Source: Pseudomonadota bacterium
GTDB taxonomy: Bacteria; Bdellovibrionota; UBA1018; CAIMNF01
Direction of reading: 5' to 3'
Assembly: GCA_027486675.1 (NCBI GenBank)
Contig: JAIXOQ010000032.1
Location: 1-64,000, forward strand
DNA length: 64,000 nucleotides
This document shows positions 53,632 through 64,000 of the stretch, one piece after another. How positions within the stretch are numbered: the first letter of the stretch is position 1; every line of letters starts with the position of its first letter. A program made the translations under genes and the position numbers. The notes under the pieces were generated by a model. The model was not told the origin of the DNA and searched no databases. It was given only the letters and a program-made list of their open reading frames with translations.

Positions 53632-54612
53632 ATGCTTAATCTTCCGCTCATTTTTGTAATCATTTCTCTCGCTTCAAATGTTTCTTTAGCAACACCGGGT
53701 GTGGATCAAGACTTTGTTGGTACCTTAGGCCAAGTCAAAGGCGTGGTGCTTGTGGATGGAGTGAAAGCACGATCCGGCATAAAAGTGCGTCAGTCATCGG
53801 TCATCGAGACGGAGCAGGGTGGTCGCGCGACACTTCTTTTAGGTGACGGGGCTCTCTTCCATCTCGCTGAAAATACATCGATAAAAGTGAGTGAGTTTTC
53901 TGCAGGCGGAACTGTGGGTTCTGCGCAGAGCGCAACGCTTGAGCTCAAGGTTGGAAGATTAAGAGGCCTGGTGCTTGACCGCGAAGGGACAGGGAAAAAG
54001 GACATTCGGATTCGAGCACGCTCGGCGACTATGGGTGTTCGCGGAACTGAAGTGTTGGTGGATGTGCCACAAGCTGCGACAGAGCCACCGACTTTTTTTA
54101 CCGTCGAAGGAAACACTGTGGTCCAGGTGGATGGACAGCAAGCTCCGGTGAACCTAGCTGCGAATCAAGGCGTGCAGGTGAGTGCATCAAATGATTCCGC
54201 AAATTCAGGAGGCTCCTCCGCAGGTGGTGGATCCCAAGGAGGGCAGAAACCAGGGCAAGCAGCAGGCTCGGGAGCGCAGTCTGGAACAGGAGTGCCTTCG
54301 CAGCAAACAGGGACAACAGCCGTTACAGCGGACACTATTGCGTCTGTGGTGAGTGATGCTGGTCTTAAACCACCTGAGGCTCCTCGCTCTGCGGGTGATA
54401 CGCGAGGTCTGATTGCTGCAAACCGGCCGGATGCAAAACCTCAGGGGCCAGCGCCCATGGTGCTGCCTCCGCCTCCCTCATTCACCGGGCCGGTATTGAT
54501 CCCGACGATGCCGCCCGTTTTTGTTGACCCAGTGGCCGATGGAGGGTCTTCCCGGGTGCTTAGAATTTTGGTCCAGCCTTGTGGTTCGGTCGCTGGTGCG
54601 AGCTGTCCGTGA
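53632..54612 (+). CDS. secreted FecR-domain protein
   Basis: Protein of 326 aa with signal peptide (ending 'LASNVSLATP'), then a FecR domain (about 25-165: 'VGTLGQVKGVVLVDG', 'RATLLLGDGALFHLAENTSI', 'ATMGVRGTEVLVDVP') and a low-complexity Ser/Gly/Gln and Pro-rich tail. There is no membrane helix, so it is not the classical FecR signalling type; stand-alone secreted FecR-domain proteins often occur beside TPR-barrel proteins. The last residues 'QPCGSVAGASCP' contain two cysteines. Good ribosome-binding site (AAGGAG) precedes the ATG. Confidence 0.85.
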   Translation: MLNLPLIFVIISLASNVSLATPGVDQDFVGTLGQVKGVVLVDGVKARSGIKVRQSSVIETEQGGRATLLLGDGALFHLAENTSIKVSEFSAGGTVGSAQSATLELKVGRLRGLVLDREGTGKKDIRIRARSATMGVRGTEVLVDVPQAATEPPTFFTVEGNTVVQVDGQQAPVNLAANQGVQVSASNDSANSGGSSAGGGSQGGQKPGQAAGSGAQSGTGVPSQQTGTTAVTADTIASVVSDAGLKPPEAPRSAGDTRGLIAANRPDAKPQGPAPMVLPPPPSFTGPVLIPTMPPVFVDPVADGGSSRVLRILVQPCGSVAGASCP

Positions 54613-56099
54613 CGCCTCTGGCATTCGTAGTCCGGACGATCTCAAATTATTTTGGGCTCTTCATTTGTATGGGATTTTTGTTTTTCCAAGCGACCTCAGT
54701 TCTCGTAAATCCTGAGGTCATTGAGGGACAGGTTGGGAAACAAACCTTTGCTCTTGAGATGGCGCGCTCTTTTTCAGAGGGGCGTGTCAAAGGGGGACTT
54801 TTTCCGGAACGTTTGTTTATTGAGCTTCATCACGATCAGGTGATCCCGTGGGCGGAGGAGTTTCCGGTCTATTCAGGGTTGGCTGGTTTTTTTGGCGGAA
54901 TCACAGGAGATTTGCAGAGATCTGCTCGTCTGTTGTCGCTGCTCGGTTGGTGTTTGTTTTTGTTTGCGGCCTGGACTTGGCTGACGATTCAGAACTCTGT
55001 TCAGGCGGGGCTCAGTGTATTTTCAAAGAACATTTGGATGACCCTAGTGGGGAGCGTTTCTGCAGTGCAGGTCTATGGCCGGTCCGTGATGCCAGACGGA
55101 TGGATGCTCGCGCTATGTTTTCTTGCTCTCGTACTTTTCGAGCAGGAGAAATACAGGAAAAGTCGGTGGGTCATTCTTCTGGCCTGTTTAGCGAAATACT
55201 ACGCAGTGTTTACCGCGATTGCTTTGTCATGGGTTGAGTTTCGAAGACGGAAGATCACAAGCGGCATTCTTTACGGTTTGGCCTGCCTGCCAGCAGTGCT
55301 CTATATCGCTTACTTTTTAAGCCTCAAAATCCCGAATCCTATTCTTGAATATAGAAACCAGGATGGTCATGGTCATATGACAGCGGCTCACTTCCTTCTT
55401 GATCCGCATTTCTATCTTCGTTTTATCACTTGGGTATTTGTAAAACTCACAAGCCCACCCGGGGGTATCCTTGCCCTGCTCGGAGTCATGTTTGCCCGAA
55501 CAAACAATCTGAAGCTCCCGGTGTGGCTCTTGCCTCTTTTTTTAGCGCAATGTGGGTTCGCAGTGATGTTTGCTCCCTCATTCTTTGTGCATGACTATTA
55601 CGCATTGTCCTTCCTTCCCGTGTTTATGGGGGCTTGGATGTTGTTGCTTCAGGTCTTTGAGGCAGGAAGATTTTTTAAGCCTTTTGCAGTTCTGATTACC
55701 ACAGTGTTTGTGGCCTGGAATACAGTCCGCGCCCAAGCGATGACTGAACGTGCCACTTCATTTCTTCAAGCCGAAACCCAAATCAGAGAGTGTCTGCCGA
55801 ATTGGAATCATGAGGATTACAGCGTTTTTTTGGTGGACCGGAGTGCGCCTGTGCTGCCGCACCGTCTAGGCATGCGGGCGTGGATTGCGGGGTTGCCGCA
55901 GCTTTCGGAAGCCGAAGGGGCGAAGCTGCTGAATCTTCGGGCTGCAGACGAAAGGACTCAGGCTGTCATTATCTGGATTCGGGAGCCTTACTTTCCTGCC
56001 TGGCGGCCCAGTGAGGCTTTCAGGGTCGTTTGTGATTTGAGAACCAAGGGTGACCAGGCGATGGGAGAAGATTCTCGATTGATTGTGCTCCGCAGATAA
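54609..56099 (+). CDS. multi-pass membrane protein, GT-C glycosyltransferase-like
   Basis: Protein of 496 aa with about ten hydrophobic helices and a soluble C-terminal part of about 110 residues. The first periplasmic loop has acidic residues around 'HHDQVIPWAEEFPVYSGL', reminiscent of the Asp/Glu loop of ArnT/PMT-type GT-C enzymes, and 'YGRSVMPDGWMLALCF' resembles their later loop. It may add a lipid-linked sugar to an envelope molecule; assignment is by topology and loop likeness. GTG 54609 overlaps the FecR stop (GTGA). Confidence 0.68.
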   Translation: MTPLAFVVRTISNYFGLFICMGFLFFQATSVLVNPEVIEGQVGKQTFALEMARSFSEGRVKGGLFPERLFIELHHDQVIPWAEEFPVYSGLAGFFGGITGDLQRSARLLSLLGWCLFLFAAWTWLTIQNSVQAGLSVFSKNIWMTLVGSVSAVQVYGRSVMPDGWMLALCFLALVLFEQEKYRKSRWVILLACLAKYYAVFTAIALSWVEFRRRKITSGILYGLACLPAVLYIAYFLSLKIPNPILEYRNQDGHGHMTAAHFLLDPHFYLRFITWVFVKLTSPPGGILALLGVMFARTNNLKLPVWLLPLFLAQCGFAVMFAPSFFVHDYYALSFLPVFMGAWMLLLQVFEAGRFFKPFAVLITTVFVAWNTVRAQAMTERATSFLQAETQIRECLPNWNHEDYSVFLVDRSAPVLPHRLGMRAWIAGLPQLSEAEGAKLLNLRAADERTQAVIIWIREPYFPAWRPSEAFRVVCDLRTKGDQAMGEDSRLIVLRR

Positions 56100-56188
56100 G
56101 TCAGAACGCGGCGCGTTAGATCATTTTTCTTCAGATCCTTCATTTTTGACGCCTGTCTACCGATAGGATCCAAGAGGACAGAAATAAC
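56100..56188 (+). other. short gap before motA
   Basis: 89 bp with a good ribosome-binding site (AGAGGA) before motA and TTGACG without a convincing -10. AACGC-ggc-GCGTT is a small hairpin not followed directly by a T-run. Confidence 0.3.
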
Positions 56189-57049
56189 ATGGTCATTCCT
56201 GGTGGAATAGTTGTCATCGTGTGCGTGCTTGGGGGATATGTTCTCCACCACGGTAAGCTTGGGGTCTTAAATCAGCCCACCGAATTTTTGATCATCTTTG
56301 GTGCGGCCATCGGCGCACTTTTGACCTCAAATGGAATTCCTCAGATTAAAATGATTATCGCTCAAGTGTTGCATGCAATCAAAGGCAAGCCGCTTGCGAA
56401 GGAAGCTTATGTTGAACTGCTGCTCTGCCTCTATGAACTATGCAAAGTAGTAAAAACGAATCCTCTTTCCCTTGAACCGCACTTAGAAAAACCAGAGGCA
56501 AGTGACATTTTTAAGAAGTACACCACTGTTCTGCACAATCACCATGCGATGCATTTTCTTTGCGATACATTAAAAGTCCAGATTTCTTCCCCCTTAAGTC
56601 CCTATGATCTTGAAGATCTCATGGATCGAGATATGAAGGCGGCCCACGCAGAAGAACACAGTGGCGTTCATGCGATCGCAAAAGTATCGGACTCTATGCC
56701 AGGACTTGGGATTGTTGCGGCAGTGTTAGGGGTTGTGATCACCATGGGTAAGTTGACCGAAGGGAAAGAAGTCATCGGTCAGTCTGTTGCAGGCGCATTG
56801 GTGGGAACATTCATCGGTATCTTGGTTTCTTACGGATTTCTTGGGCCATTGGCGGACAAAATGGAAAAAGACATCAACGATTCGGGCAAATATTTAGATG
56901 TGATTAAGTCAGCGGTCCTTGCGCTCTCAAAAGAGTGCGCACCGAAGGTCTGTGTGGAGTTCGCTCGCAGGACAATTCCGCCTATGGCACGCCCAACATT
57001 TGATGAAGTGGATAAAGCGACCTCAAGCGTCGGTCAGAAGGCTGCGTAG
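56189..57049 (+). CDS. motA: flagellar motor stator protein MotA
   Basis: Protein of 286 aa. Four membrane helices; the last two carry the conserved prolines in 'DSMPGLGIVAAVLGVVITMG' and 'GTFIGILVSYGFLGPLA'. The cytosolic loop between helices 2 and 3 has charged residues in the usual rotor-contact area. With MotB it forms the ion-driven stator of the flagellar motor. The 3-bp gap to motB supports the pair. The C-terminal 25 residues extend beyond typical MotA. Confidence 0.95.
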   Translation: MVIPGGIVVIVCVLGGYVLHHGKLGVLNQPTEFLIIFGAAIGALLTSNGIPQIKMIIAQVLHAIKGKPLAKEAYVELLLCLYELCKVVKTNPLSLEPHLEKPEASDIFKKYTTVLHNHHAMHFLCDTLKVQISSPLSPYDLEDLMDRDMKAAHAEEHSGVHAIAKVSDSMPGLGIVAAVLGVVITMGKLTEGKEVIGQSVAGALVGTFIGILVSYGFLGPLADKMEKDINDSGKYLDVIKSAVLALSKECAPKVCVEFARRTIPPMARPTFDEVDKATSSVGQKAA

Positions 57050-57052
57050 GAA

Positions 57053-57823
57053 ATGGCAAAAGAAAAAGGCGCTACCATCGTCATCAAGAGAATCACCGTG
57101 GCCGGAGCCGGAGCCCACGGAGGTGCATGGAAAGTTGCATTCGCTGACTTCATGACTGCGATGATGGCGTTCTTTTTGGTGATGTGGTTGATGGGCTCGG
57201 ACGAAGAGACAAAAGCGTCTATTTCTCACTATTTTAATCACCCGAACACACCCTATGACAAAGGACGAGATCCTCAATCAGACACGGCAAGTCCTTTGGG
57301 CGAAAAGATGGGGCAGGGAGATACGATTTTAAAGGGCGCAGATGGTGGCGTGCCTGAAGACCTTGTGCGCGAACCGCTGCGCGATCTTAAGAAGGATGTA
57401 GAAGAAAACCTAGGAGAGCTCGCATTTGGGATCGAGTTTGATGCGGACATCGAAGTTTTAAAGTTTTCGCTCCCTGGGGATGAACTCTTTGAAGTCGGTT
57501 CATCAAAAATTCGGGCACAATCTGCACCTTATCTTGATCGCTTGGCACGGATCTTTGCCAAGGTGAACGGCAGCGTGCTGATCGAGGGGCATTTAGACTC
57601 AAAGCCTTTGATTACGGGCGAGGATCCCTACATCTTTAGCACCCAGCGTGCTGTTGCCGTGATGAATTATTTTCGGGATAAACACAAAATGGACGAAGAT
57701 CGTTTCTGTCCTAGAGGTGTAGCATCTCGGCGCTCATGGAGTGCGTCCCGAGACCCAGCTGCAGAACCAAAAAACCGCAGAGTGGAATTCACCATCAGCC
57801 CCGTCAATGAATGCTCCCGCTAA
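57053..57823 (+). CDS. motB: flagellar motor stator protein MotB
   Basis: Protein of 256 aa. N-terminal membrane helix with 'WKVAFADFMTAMMAFFLVM' containing the ion-carrying Asp, a linker/plug region, then a peptidoglycan-binding OmpA-like domain ('VLIEGHLDSKPL', 'NRRVEFTI'). It anchors the stator to the cell wall. Lys/Arg-rich N-terminus and overall likeness fit a proton-type stator of Bdellovibrio style. Shares CTAA with the convergent thioesterase stop. Confidence 0.95.
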   Translation: MAKEKGATIVIKRITVAGAGAHGGAWKVAFADFMTAMMAFFLVMWLMGSDEETKASISHYFNHPNTPYDKGRDPQSDTASPLGEKMGQGDTILKGADGGVPEDLVREPLRDLKKDVEENLGELAFGIEFDADIEVLKFSLPGDELFEVGSSKIRAQSAPYLDRLARIFAKVNGSVLIEGHLDSKPLITGEDPYIFSTQRAVAVMNYFRDKHKMDEDRFCPRGVASRRSWSASRDPAAEPKNRRVEFTISPVNECSR

Positions 57824-58338
57824 GCGGTGCGCATTTTCTTAGCCAATCGGTCTAAAGCTTCTGGCGTCATGTGATGAAAAATCGCCTCAGCTTTGACAAA
57901 GACAGTATTCGCTTCATCTAAAATTGCGCCAAAACACTCGAGCTTTCGATCCTTTGGATTCTGAAGCCGCATAGCGACATAGGCTTTTGTTTCAAGCGGC
58001 AGTGGCCTTAGAAAATGCAGATGCAGATCCTGGGTAAGGGACGCAAATCCCCGATGCCACACGAGGGTTCCTAAAGCTTCATCTAGAAGCGCAGAAGATG
58101 CTCCCCCATGCACATGGCCTGGAGGGCCTTCGCAGTCCGGCTGGAAGCGCAGCGTTGCAAAGAGCGCGTCCTGATACAAAAGATGATCAAAGTACTGGAC
58201 GTGGAAGAGGCGGCTACGGGTTCCTGAGATGAAAGAACGCTCCCAGTTGGGAAAAGGTGGGGTCACTGATTTTGCATGATTCACGATGTCGTTTAGGGGA
58301 CCTAAGGATTCAAGCCATTCGGAGAATTCATTTTTCAT
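57820..58338 (-). CDS. hotdog-fold thioesterase (THEM4/PaaI-like)
   Basis: Protein of 172 aa with hotdog core 'GPPGHVHGGASSALLDEALG' (HGG and following acidic residue as in THEM4/PaaI enzymes) and 'LHLHFLRPLPLETKAYV'. It likely hydrolyses an acyl-CoA thioester in the cytosol. It starts 11 bp inside the end of the interrupted zinc-finger gene, so it belongs to the sigma-factor operon. Confidence 0.87.
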   Translation of the reverse strand: MKNEFSEWLESLGPLNDIVNHAKSVTPPFPNWERSFISGTRSRLFHVQYFDHLLYQDALFATLRFQPDCEGPPGHVHGGASSALLDEALGTLVWHRGFASLTQDLHLHFLRPLPLETKAYVAMRLQNPKDRKLECFGAILDEANTVFVKAEAIFHHMTPEALDRLAKKMRTA

Positions 58339-58654
58339 TCTTTGAGATTAGCCCTTTGATGATGCGTGCATTGAGGTCGTTGATTGAATTGTCCCCCTTT
58401 TGTTCAATTCCAGTAGCATTTTTCTTAAGCCAGCGCCCAAAACGATTGTAGTTCGAGCATGAGGTGCAGAGGCTCAGGTGGAGCAAGAAGCCAATACGTC
58501 CTAAAGCGCTCGTCTTTTCTCTGCCGAAATCAATTTTACCTGCCACCTACTTACAAGTCAGCGCAAACCGAACCCAAGCTTTTGGGGCGATCGAATAGAA
58601 CAAATCGTGCCACATCCTTTGAAAGGAAAAGGCTGCGTTCTTGTCATCATTCAT
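58328..58654 (-). pseudogene. zinc-finger (zf-HC2-like) anti-sigma gene with in-frame amber
   Basis: Reading frame starting at an ATG that overlaps the sigma gene stop (ATGA). It encodes 35 residues ending 'FALTCK', then a single TAG (58547-58549), then continues in the same frame for 72 residues from a GTG. The joined text 'LTCK-(stop)-VAGKIDFGRE' followed by 'LLHLSLCTSC' gives the C...HxxxCxxC pattern of zf-HC2/ZAS anti-sigma proteins, in which the position after CK is commonly Glu (GAG differs from TAG by one base). It may be a nonsense mutation, a readthrough site, or reinitiation at the GTG producing a protein without the first Cys. Confidence 0.6.
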
Positions 58655-59280
58655 GCGGTTCTCCGGTCTGGCGCCAACGACTTTTCAAGGCAAATCCGGA
58701 GCTTCTCCTTAGCCCGAAAGATCAGCACCCCGAGATGGGTGCGAGAAACCGCTAAAAGATTACAGATCTCTTCCGTTTCCTCATCGTCAACTTCCTTAAG
58801 AACGAACGCCAACCGCTGCTTCTCTGTGAGCCCCTCTAAGCAGCCTGAGATGCTCATGCCAAGCCCCGCATTTTCCAGTTGGGAAAGCGGAGAGGGTGGC
58901 GTTTTGTTCCACCAGCCCTCTTTCGTGAAGGTTTCGTTTAAGATTGCCTCAAGATCCTCTTCAGGCTTCATTCTCACTCGCCCGCGCTTCCACTCTCTTA
59001 CCTTGTTGATCAGGATCCCGGTGATAAATGTTTTCACTTTTGATCGGCCCTCAAATCGAACGCATGTTTCGACAAAGGTGGTCCAAGTGGACTGTAGGAT
59101 CTCCTCGGCATGGTCCCTAGGTATTGCCTGTGAAAGAAGAAGTTTTAGGAGGCCAGGATTGAGATCAGTCACCAAAGAGGTGATGAAGCCTTCGTCTCGG
59201 TGGATTAGCAACTGAAGAGAATCGTTCTGCTCATGAAGTTTTTCTTCCACAGTCTGTAATCTTCCCATGGGTCGACGCAC
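58651..59280 (-). CDS. ECF-type RNA polymerase sigma factor
   Basis: Protein of 209 aa. Region 2 contains 'DHAEEILQSTWTTFVETCV' and 'SKVKTFITGILINKVREWK'; region 4 contains 'LTEKQRLAFVLKEVDDEETE' and the helix-turn-helix 'EICNLLAVSRTHLGVLIFRA'. It redirects RNA polymerase to a stress or envelope regulon. An alternative start is the ATG at residue 5. The gene is coupled to a zinc-finger anti-sigma frame and divergent (35 bp) from the YHS-DoxX-CDO operon, which could be its target. Confidence 0.9.
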   Translation of the reverse strand: MRRPMGRLQTVEEKLHEQNDSLQLLIHRDEGFITSLVTDLNPGLLKLLLSQAIPRDHAEEILQSTWTTFVETCVRFEGRSKVKTFITGILINKVREWKRGRVRMKPEEDLEAILNETFTKEGWWNKTPPSPLSQLENAGLGMSISGCLEGLTEKQRLAFVLKEVDDEETEEICNLLAVSRTHLGVLIFRAKEKLRICLEKSLAPDRRTA

Positions 59281-59315: not shown

Positions 59316-59786
59316 ATGAAACTTAAGAGTGGTTTGATCAGTGTTTTGTTCTGTGGTGTGTTCGGTTTAGTCATGGTGGGCAGTCCTGCTCAAGCCGGGA
59401 CTGCAAACATTAGAAACGGATATCACCTCCATCAGTATGACCCAGTCAGTTACTTCGACCCAGCCGGTCCACGGAAAGGGAATGAGTCCATTTTTATTGA
59501 GCAAGACGGTGGTAAGTATTTGTTTTCGAACGAAAAGAACCGAGATGCTTTTTTAAAAGAGCCTAAAAAGTATTTACCCGAATATGAGGGTTGGTGTGCG
59601 ACTGCGGTTGCTGGAGGGTACAAATATGATATCGATCCTGAGAACTTCAAAGTCACTGGAGGTCGTCTCTTTCTGTTCTACCGAGGCTGGAAGGGTGACG
59701 CAAAGAAAGCTTGGGTCAAAGATGAAGTCGCACAGACCAAGCTAGCAGATCAAAATTGGCCGAAAGTGAAGGAGCAAGAAGAATGA
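59316..59786 (+). CDS. secreted YHS-domain protein
   Basis: Protein of 156 aa with signal peptide (ending 'SPAQA') and a YHS domain: 'YHLHQYDPVSYFDPAGPRKG', 'KYLFSNEKNRDAFLKEP' and 'YLPEYEGWCATAV'. Such proteins are periplasmic and often linked to metal or redox homeostasis. Strong ribosome-binding site (AGGAGG). Its stop overlaps the DoxX start as ATGA. It is the first gene of the operon leading to the dioxygenase-decarboxylase fusion. Confidence 0.92.
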   Translation: MKLKSGLISVLFCGVFGLVMVGSPAQAGTANIRNGYHLHQYDPVSYFDPAGPRKGNESIFIEQDGGKYLFSNEKNRDAFLKEPKKYLPEYEGWCATAVAGGYKYDIDPENFKVTGGRLFLFYRGWKGDAKKAWVKDEVAQTKLADQNWPKVKEQEE

Positions 59787-60160
59787 AACTCCATCCAAAA
59801 GTTCGGCTTTCATTGAGGCTAGTTGCGGCAGGAATCCTCCTTCAGACACTATTTTTTAAGTTTACCGCTGCTCCTGAGTCCGTGTGGATCTTCACGAAAC
59901 TAGGTGTTGAGCCTTGGGGAAGGATATTTGCGGGCCTGAGCGAGGCTGTTGCTGTTGTCCTTCTGTTGGTCCCTGTCACTCAGTACTTAGGTGCATTGAT
60001 GACTCTTGGAATTATGAGTGGCGCACTTCTGAGTCATATTGCGATTCTTGGCATAGAGATCGAAGGTGACGGGGGTCTTTTGTTTGCACTTGGGCTAGTT
60101 GCCTTTGTTTCGAGTGCAATGGTGTTTTTTTGGAGGCCTAGGTGGAGTTTGAAAGATTAG
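59783..60160 (+). CDS. DoxX-like membrane protein
   Basis: Protein of 125 aa with four hydrophobic helices (including 'SLRLVAAGILLQTLFFKFT', 'LSEAVAVVLLLVPVTQYLG', 'TLGIMSGALLSHIAILGI', 'LFALGLVAFVSSAMVFFW'), typical of DoxX-family proteins. DoxX/DoxD relatives take part in sulfur or quinone redox processes or act as membrane partners of redox enzymes. ATG 59783 overlaps the YHS stop. It ends inside the start of the next gene (19-bp overlap). Confidence 0.82.
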   Translation: MKLHPKVRLSLRLVAAGILLQTLFFKFTAAPESVWIFTKLGVEPWGRIFAGLSEAVAVVLLLVPVTQYLGALMTLGIMSGALLSHIAILGIEIEGDGGLLFALGLVAFVSSAMVFFWRPRWSLKD

Positions 60161-61764
60161 AAGCTGGCTACGAGCGCCGTACCTTAGTGCGCGGAGATGA
60201 CTTTGAGGTTGTGGAATGCCGTTGGTCTCAAGGCCAAGAATCAAAACAGCATGGCCACGGAATGAGCTCCTGCATGGTGTACGTGCAAGAAGGAGAGTTT
60301 CTCAATCAAAGTTTCTGGTCAGGAGAAGTTCGCAGCGAGACGTTTGTGACCGCTCAAACGATCGTCACTCCAGTGGGTGTTACGCATTCCTTGCGATGCC
60401 TTTCAGGAAATGGTCGGACTCTGCATGTTTACTCTCCTCCACTTGCAGACCCTAAATCGGTCGTCGCTCATACAGGAGTCGGTGACCTCAGACTGTCAGA
60501 AGAAGCAATGCCTCTGGCTAGCTTGATGAGGACCTTAAGAGATGTGAAGGCGCTATCGGTGCCCACCCACTCCTCAAGGTTCATGAATCAGTTGTTTTCT
60601 GGAGTGCATCCGGAAGCCCTCCTTGCGGATCAGGTTGCTTCTCAGACTCGGACGACGCTCGCTACTCGTGAGGCAAGTCCTGTGTTATCTGAGATTGAAG
60701 ATGAAGTTGTAGAAGCCTTAGGTCGTGAGATTGGTTGGGGGAACGGGCAACGCGCAGGAGTTTCGGTGCCCGGAGGGAGTATGGCCAATTTTATGGCCCT
60801 CCATCTGGCGCGTCAGGCATTAGCGCCAACGAGTAAGAGCGCAGGTCTTAAGGATGTAGGTCCTTTTGCGACCTTTGTCTCAGAACAAGCCCATTATTCG
60901 CTGAAAAAGGCTGCGGTTGTCTTAGGTTTTGGGATCGATTCCGTCGTCGCAGTCCGGTCAAATGCGGCGGGCAGGATGGATGTGAAGCATTTAGAGAAAT
61001 GTATACAGGAAGCCGAGGACCAAGGGCGAGCGTCGCTCGCTGTCGTCGCAACTTCCGGCACGACTGTGCTAGGTGCTTTCGATCCAATTACAGAAATCCA
61101 TGCAATTACAGAATCGAAGAAGATTTGGTTACATGTGGATGCTGCCTGGGGAGGGCCGGCATTGTTCACTGATCGCTTGAAGGCGCAGGTGAAAGGAATT
61201 CATCTTGCAGACTCTGTGACCTTTGATGCCCATAAACTTTTTGGCTCTTCCCTGACCTCGAGTTTTCTCCTGACCCGGCATCGATCGCTACTTCTTGACG
61301 CAAACGATGTGTCGGGTGCGGATTATTTATTTCATGAGGACCAGGCTCAAAAACTCGATATTGGACGGATTTCTTGGCAATGCGGAAGAGGTCCTGATGC
61401 GCTTTCGTTTTGGACCCTTTGGAAGAGCAGAGGAACCAGTGGCCTAAGTCGTATGGTGGATCGTCTCTTAGATGTCAGAGATGAATTGGTGTCTTTTATT
61501 GTAAAAGAACCAAGGCTATCGCTGGTTGCGGATCCTTCGTATTTGAACGTTTGCGTTCGTATCGATCCACCCAAAGAGTCCACTCTGGACTCAAAAGATT
61601 GGGCAGTCTTTGTTCGGACCCGCCTGATGGAAGAAAAGAAAGCTTGGGTCAATTACGCGCGCGACCAGGATGGGCGATCTTTCCTGAGAATGATCTTGGT
61701 CCATCCGGATCTAAATTTCTCGCACGCAAAAGAGTTACTGACCGACGCGCTCAGTGTTCGGTAA
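60142..61764 (+). CDS. fusion of cysteine-dioxygenase-like cupin and PLP group II decarboxylase
   Basis: Protein of 540 aa. Residues 1-105 resemble cysteine dioxygenase: the iron ligands fit His37 and His39 in 'QHGHGMSSCM' and His82 in 'VTHSLR', with Cys44 and Tyr97 ('LHVYSPP') placed like the Cys-Tyr cofactor pair of mammalian CDO. Residues 140-540 are a group II decarboxylase: 'VPGGSMANFMALH', stacking His in 'EQAHYSLKKAA', 'HVDAAWGG', and PLP Lys366 in 'FDAHKLFG'. Together the two halves predict cysteine to cysteine sulfinate to hypotaurine (known as separate CDO and CSAD steps); fusion and role are inferred. GTG start with GGAGG 5 bp upstream. Substrate could be another thiol. Confidence 0.82.
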   Translation: MEFERLEAGYERRTLVRGDDFEVVECRWSQGQESKQHGHGMSSCMVYVQEGEFLNQSFWSGEVRSETFVTAQTIVTPVGVTHSLRCLSGNGRTLHVYSPPLADPKSVVAHTGVGDLRLSEEAMPLASLMRTLRDVKALSVPTHSSRFMNQLFSGVHPEALLADQVASQTRTTLATREASPVLSEIEDEVVEALGREIGWGNGQRAGVSVPGGSMANFMALHLARQALAPTSKSAGLKDVGPFATFVSEQAHYSLKKAAVVLGFGIDSVVAVRSNAAGRMDVKHLEKCIQEAEDQGRASLAVVATSGTTVLGAFDPITEIHAITESKKIWLHVDAAWGGPALFTDRLKAQVKGIHLADSVTFDAHKLFGSSLTSSFLLTRHRSLLLDANDVSGADYLFHEDQAQKLDIGRISWQCGRGPDALSFWTLWKSRGTSGLSRMVDRLLDVRDELVSFIVKEPRLSLVADPSYLNVCVRIDPPKESTLDSKDWAVFVRTRLMEEKKAWVNYARDQDGRSFLRMILVHPDLNFSHAKELLTDALSVR

Positions 61765-61771
61765 GTCAAAC

Positions 61772-63241
61772 ATGGAATCAGGCTTTGCCATCGCATTCGG
61801 AATCGTGTTTGGGAGCTTGGTCTCTGAAGACTTAGCACTCCTGGGTGCGGTTGCTGCTTCGAGGTCACAGATCCTCAGTGTCCCGATTGCATTTATCGCG
61901 GCAGCGGGCGGAATCTTTTTTGGCGATTTGCTTCTTTATGCTGTGGGTCGACTGCTTAAAAAAAAGCGGGTCAACTCTTTCAAAAAAAAGGGCTTTGCAC
62001 GGGCGGGTGTTTTTTTGGCGCGATTCATACCCGGCACACGTTTGCCGGTTTACCTCAGTGTCGGCGCTTTAGGGATGTCAGTCACAGATTTTGCGATCAC
62101 GACAGGGGTCGCGGTCTTTGTTTGGACAGGCTTAGGATTCTTTTTGGGAAGTTTTCTGCCGACGCTTGAGTGGATTCGAATGCATGGGATCTGGTTTGTT
62201 TTGGTTGTGGCTGCGCTGTCGGTCGTGACTCTGGGATTGTCTCAACGCCTGCGAAATTCATTTTGGATCTTCTTAAGGATGAGGTTCTACCGGGTTCTTC
62301 GGTTTCGATATTTCGAGTTTTGGCCCATGTGGCTTTTCTATCCGCCAGTGGTTCTTTATGGTGTCTGGCTTGCGATCAAATACCGCAGCATTCGTGCGCC
62401 GCTTGACGCAAATCCAGGAGTAGAGAACGGAGGGGTGATCGGAGAGAGTAAATCCGCTATCCTCGCCTCTTTTTCGGGTGAGGCTGAGTGCTTGGAGTAC
62501 GAGATCGTTTCTTCAGTAGAGGCTGCGCTCGGTTGGATGAATCTCAAAGATCAGTCTTATCCCGTCGTGTTGAAACCGGACGTTGGACAGAGGGGGAGCG
62601 GAGTTCGAGTGGTGCGAACTGAGGCAGAGCTCATGAATGCGTTTTTAGAAGCTCATGAAGACAGCATCATGATCATTCAGGAATATTGCGACTTCACTGA
62701 AGAGGTGGGAGTGAATTATGTGCGCTATCCGGATCAAGACCATGGAGCGATTGTCGGCATCACTCGAAAACGATTTCCTGTTGTAATAGGTGATGGAGTT
62801 CATACCCTAACAGAGCTTGTTCTTTCCGATGAGAGAGCCCGATACATCGCCGACACCTATTTGAAGCGATTCCCGAAGGATCGAGACCGGATTATTAATA
62901 TAGGTGAAGACTTCAGGCTTGTTGAAACTGGGAATCATTGCCAGGGGACGATTTTTGAAGATGGCGGATGTCTTTGGTCTCATGCACTTGAAGTGAGGCT
63001 TGATGCATTAGTGAAAAAGGTCCCTGGCGTTTACACCGGACGCTTTGATCTTCGTTTTTCGGATGAAGCGGAACTGATGGCGGGGCGCGGATTTAAGATC
63101 ATTGAGCTCAATGTTGGAGCCGGCGAGGCAACACACATCTATGATGCAAGGAAGACGTTGCGTGAGGCTTATGGAATCTTATTTGAACAGCTGAGAGTGC
63201 TCTTTCGGATCGGGATGTGGTTGCAGAGAGAAAGAAGCTGA
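61772..63241 (+). CDS. fusion of DedA membrane domain and ATP-grasp ligase
   Basis: Protein of 489 aa. The N-terminal 150 residues resemble DedA/SNARE-associated proteins ('FFGDLLLYAVGRLLKKK', 'ARFIPGTRLPVYLSVGALG'). Two more helices follow (about 145-165, 200-220), then an ATP-grasp domain of about 270 residues: 'YPVVLKPDVGQRGSGVRVV', 'IIQEYCDFTEEVGV', metal site 'FKIIELNVGAGEATH'. ATP-grasp enzymes link a carboxylate to an amine or thiol; DedA domains act on membrane lipids. ATG 61772 is preferred over GTG 61754. It is adjacent to the CDO-decarboxylase gene (7-bp gap). Confidence 0.85.
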   Translation: MESGFAIAFGIVFGSLVSEDLALLGAVAASRSQILSVPIAFIAAAGGIFFGDLLLYAVGRLLKKKRVNSFKKKGFARAGVFLARFIPGTRLPVYLSVGALGMSVTDFAITTGVAVFVWTGLGFFLGSFLPTLEWIRMHGIWFVLVVAALSVVTLGLSQRLRNSFWIFLRMRFYRVLRFRYFEFWPMWLFYPPVVLYGVWLAIKYRSIRAPLDANPGVENGGVIGESKSAILASFSGEAECLEYEIVSSVEAALGWMNLKDQSYPVVLKPDVGQRGSGVRVVRTEAELMNAFLEAHEDSIMIIQEYCDFTEEVGVNYVRYPDQDHGAIVGITRKRFPVVIGDGVHTLTELVLSDERARYIADTYLKRFPKDRDRIINIGEDFRLVETGNHCQGTIFEDGGCLWSHALEVRLDALVKKVPGVYTGRFDLRFSDEAELMAGRGFKIIELNVGAGEATHIYDARKTLREAYGILFEQLRVLFRIGMWLQRERS

Positions 63242-63279: not shown

Positions 63280-64000
63280 TTATTGACCTAAATAATCCTT
63301 CAAGGAAACCTCTTCTCGGAAGGCGAGGTTTGTCTCCTTTGAAGGCAGAAGAATTGAGAGCTGATCAAAGAAATAGGCGTCAAACGGTGAATACTTGCGA
63401 ACAATGCGGGTGGTCACCTGATAGTTTCCATGTCCCACTGGAGTATATATATCGGGTCTATCCAAGATCACTTCCCGAAGTTTTGGTTCTGCGAGCTTAA
63501 GGTCAAATTCAAAAGCTAATGGCGGATATTCATCGTGGATCCAAAGTGTTTTCGGATAGGGCGTTACATGCTCAATACCTGCAAGGTAGGTTACTTTACC
63601 AAACAACCTCACCTTAACGTGAGAGATCAAAGCTTCGTAACCGAAGCTTGGGTGCCAAGGTCTCAAAGGGGCAAGAAGCACAGTTTTTTGCGTCTCTTCT
63701 TTGTTCTGCTTTTCAAGAAATCGACGCAAGCGCTGGATGTAAACAGTCTCGTCCTTCTGGAAGATGACTCTCATACGGTGACCCGAATGAAAGTCAATCT
63801 TAAGACATGGCAATTCCTGGCCTTCGGGAGTCTGGCAGAAACAGTCATGGTATCCGCTGATCCAGGATACTGAACGACGTAGACCCATAAAGTCATAAGC
63901 CGCATTATTTGTAGCGCGTTCAAGAAAGCAGGGAGCAAGAATCCAAATGACATTTGGTGCGCAGACTACAAGGGTGAGTTCATGTTGGGAGATCGTCGTT
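63280..64000 (-). CDS. hypothetical protein, 5' end beyond window
   Basis: Unrecognised protein. An ATG at 63888 would give 202 aa, but the frame stays open to the window edge and the extra text ('VVCAPNVIWILAPCFLERAT' followed by 'NNAAYDFMGLRR') looks like coding sequence, so the gene very likely starts outside. Features: Cys-containing 'YHDCFCQTPEGQELPC', aromatic-rich middle ('RPWHPSFGYEAL') and 'VGHGNYQVTTRIV'. Convergent with the DedA-ATP-grasp gene over a 38-bp gap without a hairpin. Confidence 0.6.
   Translation of the reverse strand, partial: TTISQHELTLVVCAPNVIWILAPCFLERATNNAAYDFMGLRRSVSWISGYHDCFCQTPEGQELPCLKIDFHSGHRMRVIFQKDETVYIQRLRRFLEKQNKEETQKTVLLAPLRPWHPSFGYEALISHVKVRLFGKVTYLAGIEHVTPYPKTLWIHDEYPPLAFEFDLKLAEPKLREVILDRPDIYTPVGHGNYQVTTRIVRKYSPFDAYFFDQLSILLPSKETNLAFREEVSLKDYLGQ

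Follow-up and report, generated by a model that had tools for sequence, protein, structure and literature searches.

Cysteine dioxygenase (CDO) and cysteine sulfinate decarboxylase (CSAD) are separate enzymes in animals, where between them they convert cysteine to hypotaurine, from which taurine is made; bacterial taurine synthesis has been little studied. The same proposed chemistry, from cysteine through cysteine sulfinate to hypotaurine, reportedly appears in the taurine pathways of prokaryotes and microalgae treated by Agnello et al. 2013 and Tevatia et al. 2015, and claims to fused CDO/decarboxylase genes in some green algae have been made, chiefly in patents. Neither the chemistry nor either domain is new in itself. 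Arg60 marks the Arg-type, cysteine-using thiol dioxygenases, as opposed to the Gln-type, and a Cys93-Tyr157 bond characterises the eukaryotic CDOs, the bacterial forms having an unmodified Tyr (PMC8050391). For the decarboxylases, the presence of Ser (GAD), Tyr (GADL1) or Phe (CSAD) at the selectivity site is a described difference, and GADL1 accepts aspartate as well as cysteine sulfinate (PMC7367687). Roseobacters are known to contain aminosulfonate lipids whose head-group steps are unresolved (PMC8319176). Here we describe a protein that combines the two enzymes in one polypeptide, encoded by a relative of the predator Bdellovibrio. No description of this Bdellovibrionota fusion or of its gene cluster was found in the open-licence literature, as judged mostly from titles and abstracts.

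A CDO-CSAD fusion within a set of overlapping genes

The open reading frame at 60142-61764 on the forward strand of the window (the whole 64,000-nucleotide stretch of DNA that was analysed) is a short CDO cupin joined to a CSAD-type group II pyridoxal phosphate (PLP) decarboxylase. A sequence-only reading had described this fusion, and the observation is confirmed: the frame is real and unbroken, encoding 540 amino acids with no internal stop; it starts with a GTG at 60142, which is preceded by GGAGG at 60132-60136. An assembly or frame artefact was ruled out, since the same domain order recurs in eight other genomes. Four genes overlap head to tail at this site (YHS, DoxX, CDO-CSAD and VTT-ATP-grasp): the DoxX ATG at 59783 falls on the YHS stop, the fusion gene begins before the DoxX gene has ended, and the VTT-ATP-grasp gene in turn begins ahead of the fusion gene's stop. 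The features of the locus are as follows.

58328..58546, - strand: small C4-family protein, found alongside the sigma factor (cluster C4; homologue without Pfam match)
58651..59280, - strand: ECF-type sigma factor, divergent (PF08281, PF04542)
59316..59786, + strand: YHS-domain protein opening the set, signal peptide likely (PF04945 below cut-off; family conserved across loci)
59783..60160, + strand: DoxX-like membrane protein (PF13564/PF07681, weak; conserved position)
60142..60456, + strand: N-terminal CDO-type cupin, aa 1-105 (phmmer, fused-cupin profile, residue table, AF2 fold)
60457..60486, + strand: linker, about aa 106-115 (AF2 pLDDT below 50 at aa 103-112)
60487..61761, + strand: CSAD-type group II PLP decarboxylase, aa 116-540 (Pfam, PDB, motif, fold search)
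61234-61236, + strand: codon of the PLP lysine, Lys365, within the decarboxylase half, which also holds FMNQLFSG at aa 147-154
61754..63241, + strand: VTT (DedA-like) membrane domain, aa 12-133, joined to an ATP-grasp domain, about aa 183-495 (PF09335 and ATP-grasp Pfam matches)

The ATP-grasp domain gave profile matches to glutathione synthase and cyanophycin synthase, and linkage of the ECF sigma factor to the fusion gene recurs in several genomes. Adjoining the operon at 63280-63888 (- strand) is a 202-aa open reading frame with no Pfam match; judged by eye, open reading frames upstream at 53632-57823 resemble genes for a FecR-type protein, a membrane protein akin to glycosyltransferases and the flagellar motor components MotA/MotB.

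We favour, with a probability of roughly 0.72, the reading that the fusion is a bifunctional enzyme taking cysteine through cysteine sulfinate to hypotaurine, with the neighbouring genes possibly using the hypotaurine. The cupin would hold iron via His37, His39 and His82 and oxidise L-cysteine with O2 to cysteine sulfinate, with Arg12 binding the carboxylate and Tyr97, probably cross-linked to Cys44, tuning the site; Lys365 would form the Schiff base, and the C-terminal half would decarboxylate cysteine sulfinate to hypotaurine. The domains, their residues, the conservation of the fusion and its gene neighbourhood are observed directly; the two reactions, a thioether bond and any transfer from one half to the other are inferences. 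Use of the hypotaurine by the neighbouring genes would follow, a step held with lower confidence than the two reactions. The sequence-only reading had proposed that one polypeptide would make hypotaurine from cysteine if both halves use the expected substrates, and the sequence comparisons below support it. Overall, hypotaurine formation is well supported by inference, and a downstream (hypo)taurine conjugate is hypothesized.

Distribution of the fusion in Bdellovibrionota

A search for proteins with the same domain order, which had been proposed alongside the earlier reading, recovered the fusion with its active-site residues retained in eight further Bdellovibrionota genomes (loci L002-L006, L008, L015 and L070), making nine intact fusions with that of the window. 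The spread outside Bdellovibrionota was assessed by one pattern scan, which would miss divergent fusions. Phages and plasmids gave no fusion among the matches listed; the listed match with more than 80% coverage, H11 from Natronorubrum, was set aside as part of a diaminobutyrate/siderophore gene set. In the tree, the fused decarboxylases group as a single clade (12 rows, SH-aLRT 100), which includes L007, L045 and L071, where active-site residues have been lost from the cupin, as well as L009 and L072, where the cupin itself has been lost. Since degraded and cupin-less members fall within the one clade, the fusion, on this tree, probably had a single origin, followed by decay on more than one occasion. 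CDO and CSAD are encoded by separate, adjoining genes at L010, L011, L012, L016 and L019, and at L013 with one gene between them. The decarboxylases of these separate-gene loci belong to a different clade from the fused ones, so that two branches of the family serve the same gene set.

Conserved neighbours and the possible fate of hypotaurine

The conserved gene cluster, which the sequence-only reading had missed, is the more novel part of the system. The order YHS, DoxX, fusion is retained in all nine intact-fusion loci, and in all nine the VTT-ATP-grasp gene adjoins this unit directly or lies at most two genes away. The dead-cupin copies at L007, L045 and L071 lie outside the cluster, and none has YHS, DoxX or VTT/ATP-grasp neighbours; intact cupin residues inside the cluster and dead cupins outside it thus provide a natural control for the hypotaurine reading. 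In the separate-gene relatives, CDO, CSAD and ATP-grasp occur together, usually with VTT and YHS, the VTT and ATP-grasp domains being encoded by separate genes, and at L010 DoxX is fused with YHS. At L096:6448-7944 (G142:C11), an ATP-grasp domain (aa 12-342) is fused with a CDO domain (aa 382-490) that has its iron ligands, Cys and Tyr in place, and a decarboxylase gene follows. Fusion of CDO to CSAD in one lineage and to ATP-grasp in another is strong circumstantial evidence for one pathway. Among the 291 genomes of the phylum that were sampled, the decarboxylase was found in 50, the ATP-grasp protein in 23 and both in 22; this co-occurrence (22 of 23) gave a Fisher p of 3e-18, a statistic that ignores kinship. 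The recurrent set of CDO, CSAD, ATP-grasp, VTT, DoxX and YHS, together with the independent domain fusions, points to one pathway, and the constant company of YHS, DoxX and VTT/ATP-grasp suggests a larger taurine-related pathway that seems to be undescribed.

Within such a pathway, DoxX and YHS, which are candidates by position, would perhaps oxidise hypotaurine to taurine at the membrane. An FMO-type hypotaurine oxidase was not found in the genome of the window; TauD, which serves taurine use, was absent from that genome and present in three of the nine intact-fusion genomes. Because hypotaurine is an amine without a carboxylate, an ATP-grasp ligase could use it only as the nucleophile, giving an amide. 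The membrane-tethered ATP-grasp enzyme would join the (hypo)taurine amine to a carboxylate, possibly one on an acylated amino-acid lipid moved across the membrane by the VTT domain. A Bdellovibrionota pathway to a (hypo)taurine conjugate, comprising CDO-CSAD, perhaps oxidation by DoxX/YHS, ligation by a VTT-tethered ATP-grasp enzyme and maybe a bacterial Cys-Tyr cofactor, is put forward tentatively, as something possible rather than probable.

A related proposal, which extends the hypotaurine reading, is that the neighbouring genes form an aminolipid pathway, with (hypo)taurine entering a lipid head group through OlsB-like N-acylation/PlsC-like O-acylation or through ATP-grasp amidation of an acylated amino acid. 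Cerilipin, an ornithine lipid amidated with taurine and reported from Gluconobacter, would be a precedent. In some relatives the cluster is extended by msrA/msrB, by acyltransferases of the OlsB-like and PlsC-like kinds and by an alpha/beta hydrolase; OlsB-like genes lie in the clusters of L003, L011, L013 and L019, the one in L003 running over the fusion gene's stop, and PlsC-like genes in those of L010, L011, L013 and L019. Beyond the phylum, records from Salinivibrio, Vibrio, Photobacterium, Azospirillum and Paracoccus pair VTT with ATP-grasp, and on Vibrionaceae plasmids the two are clustered with YHS, DoxX and a two-domain PlsC-OlsB protein. However, no CDO or CSAD was seen near the Vibrio/Photobacterium cluster, the OlsB/PlsC pair of the window's genome is on another contig, and OlsB-like genes are common across the phylum with or without the fusion, so that over the 34 genomes compared their presence did not discriminate and was discarded as support. 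We consider an aminolipid end product rather unlikely.

Several of these loci have features of their own. Genes for msrA and msrB with likely signal peptides stand beside the cluster at L002:3738-4873, L005:3741-4876 and L012:7571-9556, which hints at a connection to oxidative damage of the envelope. At L097:7379-7876, L098:7227-7697 and L099:7480-8043, divergent small cupins are flanked by VTT-ATP-grasp and by a decarboxylase whose selectivity site reads QLWS, possibly a variant pathway with another substrate. On the Vibrio and Photobacterium plasmids (L144:7307-14023, L149:7267-13097), the cluster also includes DinB-like and TANGO2/NRDE genes and looks like an aminolipid-related module.

The decarboxylase half and its substrate

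The decarboxylase half matched Pfam PF00282 (E = 3e-64), and its best matches in the PDB were mouse/human CSAD (E = 1e-75), followed by GADL1 and GAD, a CSAD-first ranking with which the fold search agrees. The earlier claim of an intact group II PLP decarboxylase stands; the number it gave to the PLP lysine does not, since the conserved pair is H364-K365 and the PLP lysine is Lys365, not Lys366. The selectivity segment reads FMNQLFSG here, FFNQLFSG in mouse CSAD, FFNQLYAG in GADL1 and YFNQLSTG in GAD65. It had been noted that a preference for aspartate or aromatic amino acids would speak against hypotaurine formation; by sequence, the enzyme is nearest to CSAD and has Phe at the selectivity position rather than the Ser of GAD or the Tyr of GADL1, and a GAD-type substrate is not favoured by the motif. 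Within the two main clades, every intact fused decarboxylase and every separate one linked to CDO carries FMNQLFSG; the motif was one of the query patterns, but the comparison set was gathered mostly by a profile search free of that bias. Slight differences at the motif occur in dead-cupin copies (FTG in L045, YSG in L071), the decarboxylase of the genome with the ATP-grasp-CDO fusion (L096) is an exception with LNQLYGG, and FGG, NGG or YGG is the usual form in the phylum's unlinked decarboxylases.

The enzyme might instead act mainly as an aspartate 1-decarboxylase, supplying beta-alanine for coenzyme A in place of PanD, with the cupin as an accessory or side activity. CSAD-like enzymes also use aspartate, as GADL1 does alongside cysteine sulfinate (PMC7367687), and in the window's genome (G000, 95% complete), where the fusion is the only decarboxylase gene of its type found, PanC is present and PanD was not found. 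The genomes G232, G137 and G228, with dead-cupin or cupin-less copies, likewise have PanC and no PanD, as expected if these copies make beta-alanine. However, PanD accompanies the intact fusion in four of the nine genomes (G178, G219, G242 and G221); the fusion is therefore not there merely as a PanD replacement, and the pattern of PanC without PanD does not hold for the family. In addition, the cupin active site is retained wherever the gene cluster is, and several relatives that lack both PanD and the fusion decarboxylase still have PanC, indicating that beta-alanine has other sources. As the main explanation of the fusion, beta-alanine supply is improbable; aspartate may nevertheless be a second or even the main substrate, and dual use, for hypotaurine and beta-alanine, is quite possible. 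The decarboxylases of the fused copies that have lost the cupin iron ligands (L007:5980-7647, L045:1498-3066 and L071:7940-9676, in genomes G232, G011 and G137, all without PanD) may make beta-alanine. PanC without detected PanD was also seen in most sampled relatives of the window's genome.

The cupin half and its relation to cysteine dioxygenases

The cupin half scores 14.6 bits against Pfam CDO_I, under the cut-off of 23, and automatic annotation would therefore miss it, although separate CDOs in the same cluster of relatives do exceed the cut-off; because standard family models miss this half, CDO-CSAD fusions are probably under-reported. When the cupin alone was compared with the PDB (phmmer), the best matches were B. 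subtilis CDO entries (E = 6e-7), which are Arg-type bacterial CDOs. A profile of eight fused cupins reached B. subtilis CDO at 2e-8, non-CDO cupins scoring no better than about 2e-3, and a profile with the relatives' separate CDOs added reached mammalian CDO at 3e-20, with 3-mercaptopropionate dioxygenase at only 2e-5. A chance cupin resemblance was ruled out by the three CDO values. A better fit to non-CDO cupins lacking the Cys-Tyr pair had been named as what would overturn the CDO assignment; the sequence proved closer to CDOs, with the pair retained.

The CDO-like set described in the sequence-only reading (His37, His39, Cys44, His82 and Tyr97) is complete and aligns with rat H86, H88, C93, H140 and Y157, the three His residues matching the iron site within a predicted cupin fold. 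Beyond these residues, Arg12, equivalent to the substrate-binding R60 of the rat enzyme, and His95 (H155) are present; the remaining aligned pairs are Y10/Y58, W28/W77, S42/S91 and T93/S153. Arg12 is invariant across all 14 aligned domains, fused and separate, and the position of rat Y58 varies among fusions. In the Ser-His-Tyr set (153/155/157), His95 and Tyr97 are present and Ser is replaced by Thr93, a change shared by all intact fusions and by two other cluster-linked CDOs, L010 and L096. Apart from this replacement and an Ala for Cys93 in L008, the catalytic positions are retained in all nine cluster-linked fusions; Cys occupies the Cys93 position in eight of the nine and in five of six separate CDOs. 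Counted against the CDO reading are the Thr for Ser, the variable Y58 position, the sub-threshold Pfam score and the size of the cupin: at about 105 aa it lacks the helices at the N-terminus and the C-terminal segment seen in known CDOs.

Structure prediction, also proposed earlier, gave a confident AlphaFold (AF2) model of the cupin half (pLDDT 89.6), whose best single match in the fold search was cysteine-bound B. subtilis CDO (4qm9). KdgF-type cupins scored almost equally, so the fold alone does not decide and the residues do; ergothioneine dioxygenase and other cupins were also among the fold matches. That the cupin oxidises another thiol (3-mercaptopropionate or an ergothioneine-like compound) or senses redox state or metal, so that the halves do not form one cysteine-to-hypotaurine route, is highly improbable: it would suit a short, divergent cupin below the Pfam cut-off with ergothioneine dioxygenase among its fold matches and, in relatives, with msrA/msrB and an ECF sigma factor near the fusion, but Arg12 is the mark of Arg-type, cysteine-using enzymes and not of the Gln-type (PMC8050391), the sequence scores of mercaptopropionate and ergothioneine dioxygenases are far lower, and a CSAD-type partner uses the product of CDO. 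Within the hypotaurine reading, Cys44 and Tyr97 appear placed for a Cys-Tyr cofactor, and a bacterial CDO may carry a cofactor thought to be eukaryotic.

Comparison with known systems

A single enzyme converting cysteine to hypotaurine would, if true, be a compact and useful catalyst, and the CDO core of about 105 residues, with its bacterial Cys-Tyr pair, bears on the minimal CDO and on the origin of the cofactor. The closest relative of the cupin, by sequence and by fold, is B. subtilis CDO/YubC (3eqe, 4qm9), with which it shares the cupin core, the Arg60 equivalent, the three His ligands and the His-Tyr of the Ser-His-Tyr set; in contrast, the fusion cupin is only about 105 aa long, is joined to a decarboxylase, has Cys at the Cys93 position where B. 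subtilis has Gly, and has Thr for Ser153. With mammalian CDO type 1 it shares the Cys93-Tyr157 pair and all iron ligands, whereas the N-terminal helical part and the C-terminal segment are missing and the cross-link is only predicted. The decarboxylase half has its best PDB match in human/mouse CSAD (2jis, 6zek), sharing the group II PLP decarboxylase architecture, the QLFSG segment and the PLP lysine; the two are about one-third identical, the fusion differs in having an N-terminal CDO domain, and the tree groups it with bacterial relatives, apart from the animal enzymes. As an analogue for a possible end product, the sulfur-containing aminolipid of Roseobacter (SalA) offers an aminosulfonate head group and a PlsC-family acyltransferase; the roseobacter head group, however, is aminopropane sulfonate and not taurine, and no CDO-CSAD step is described there.
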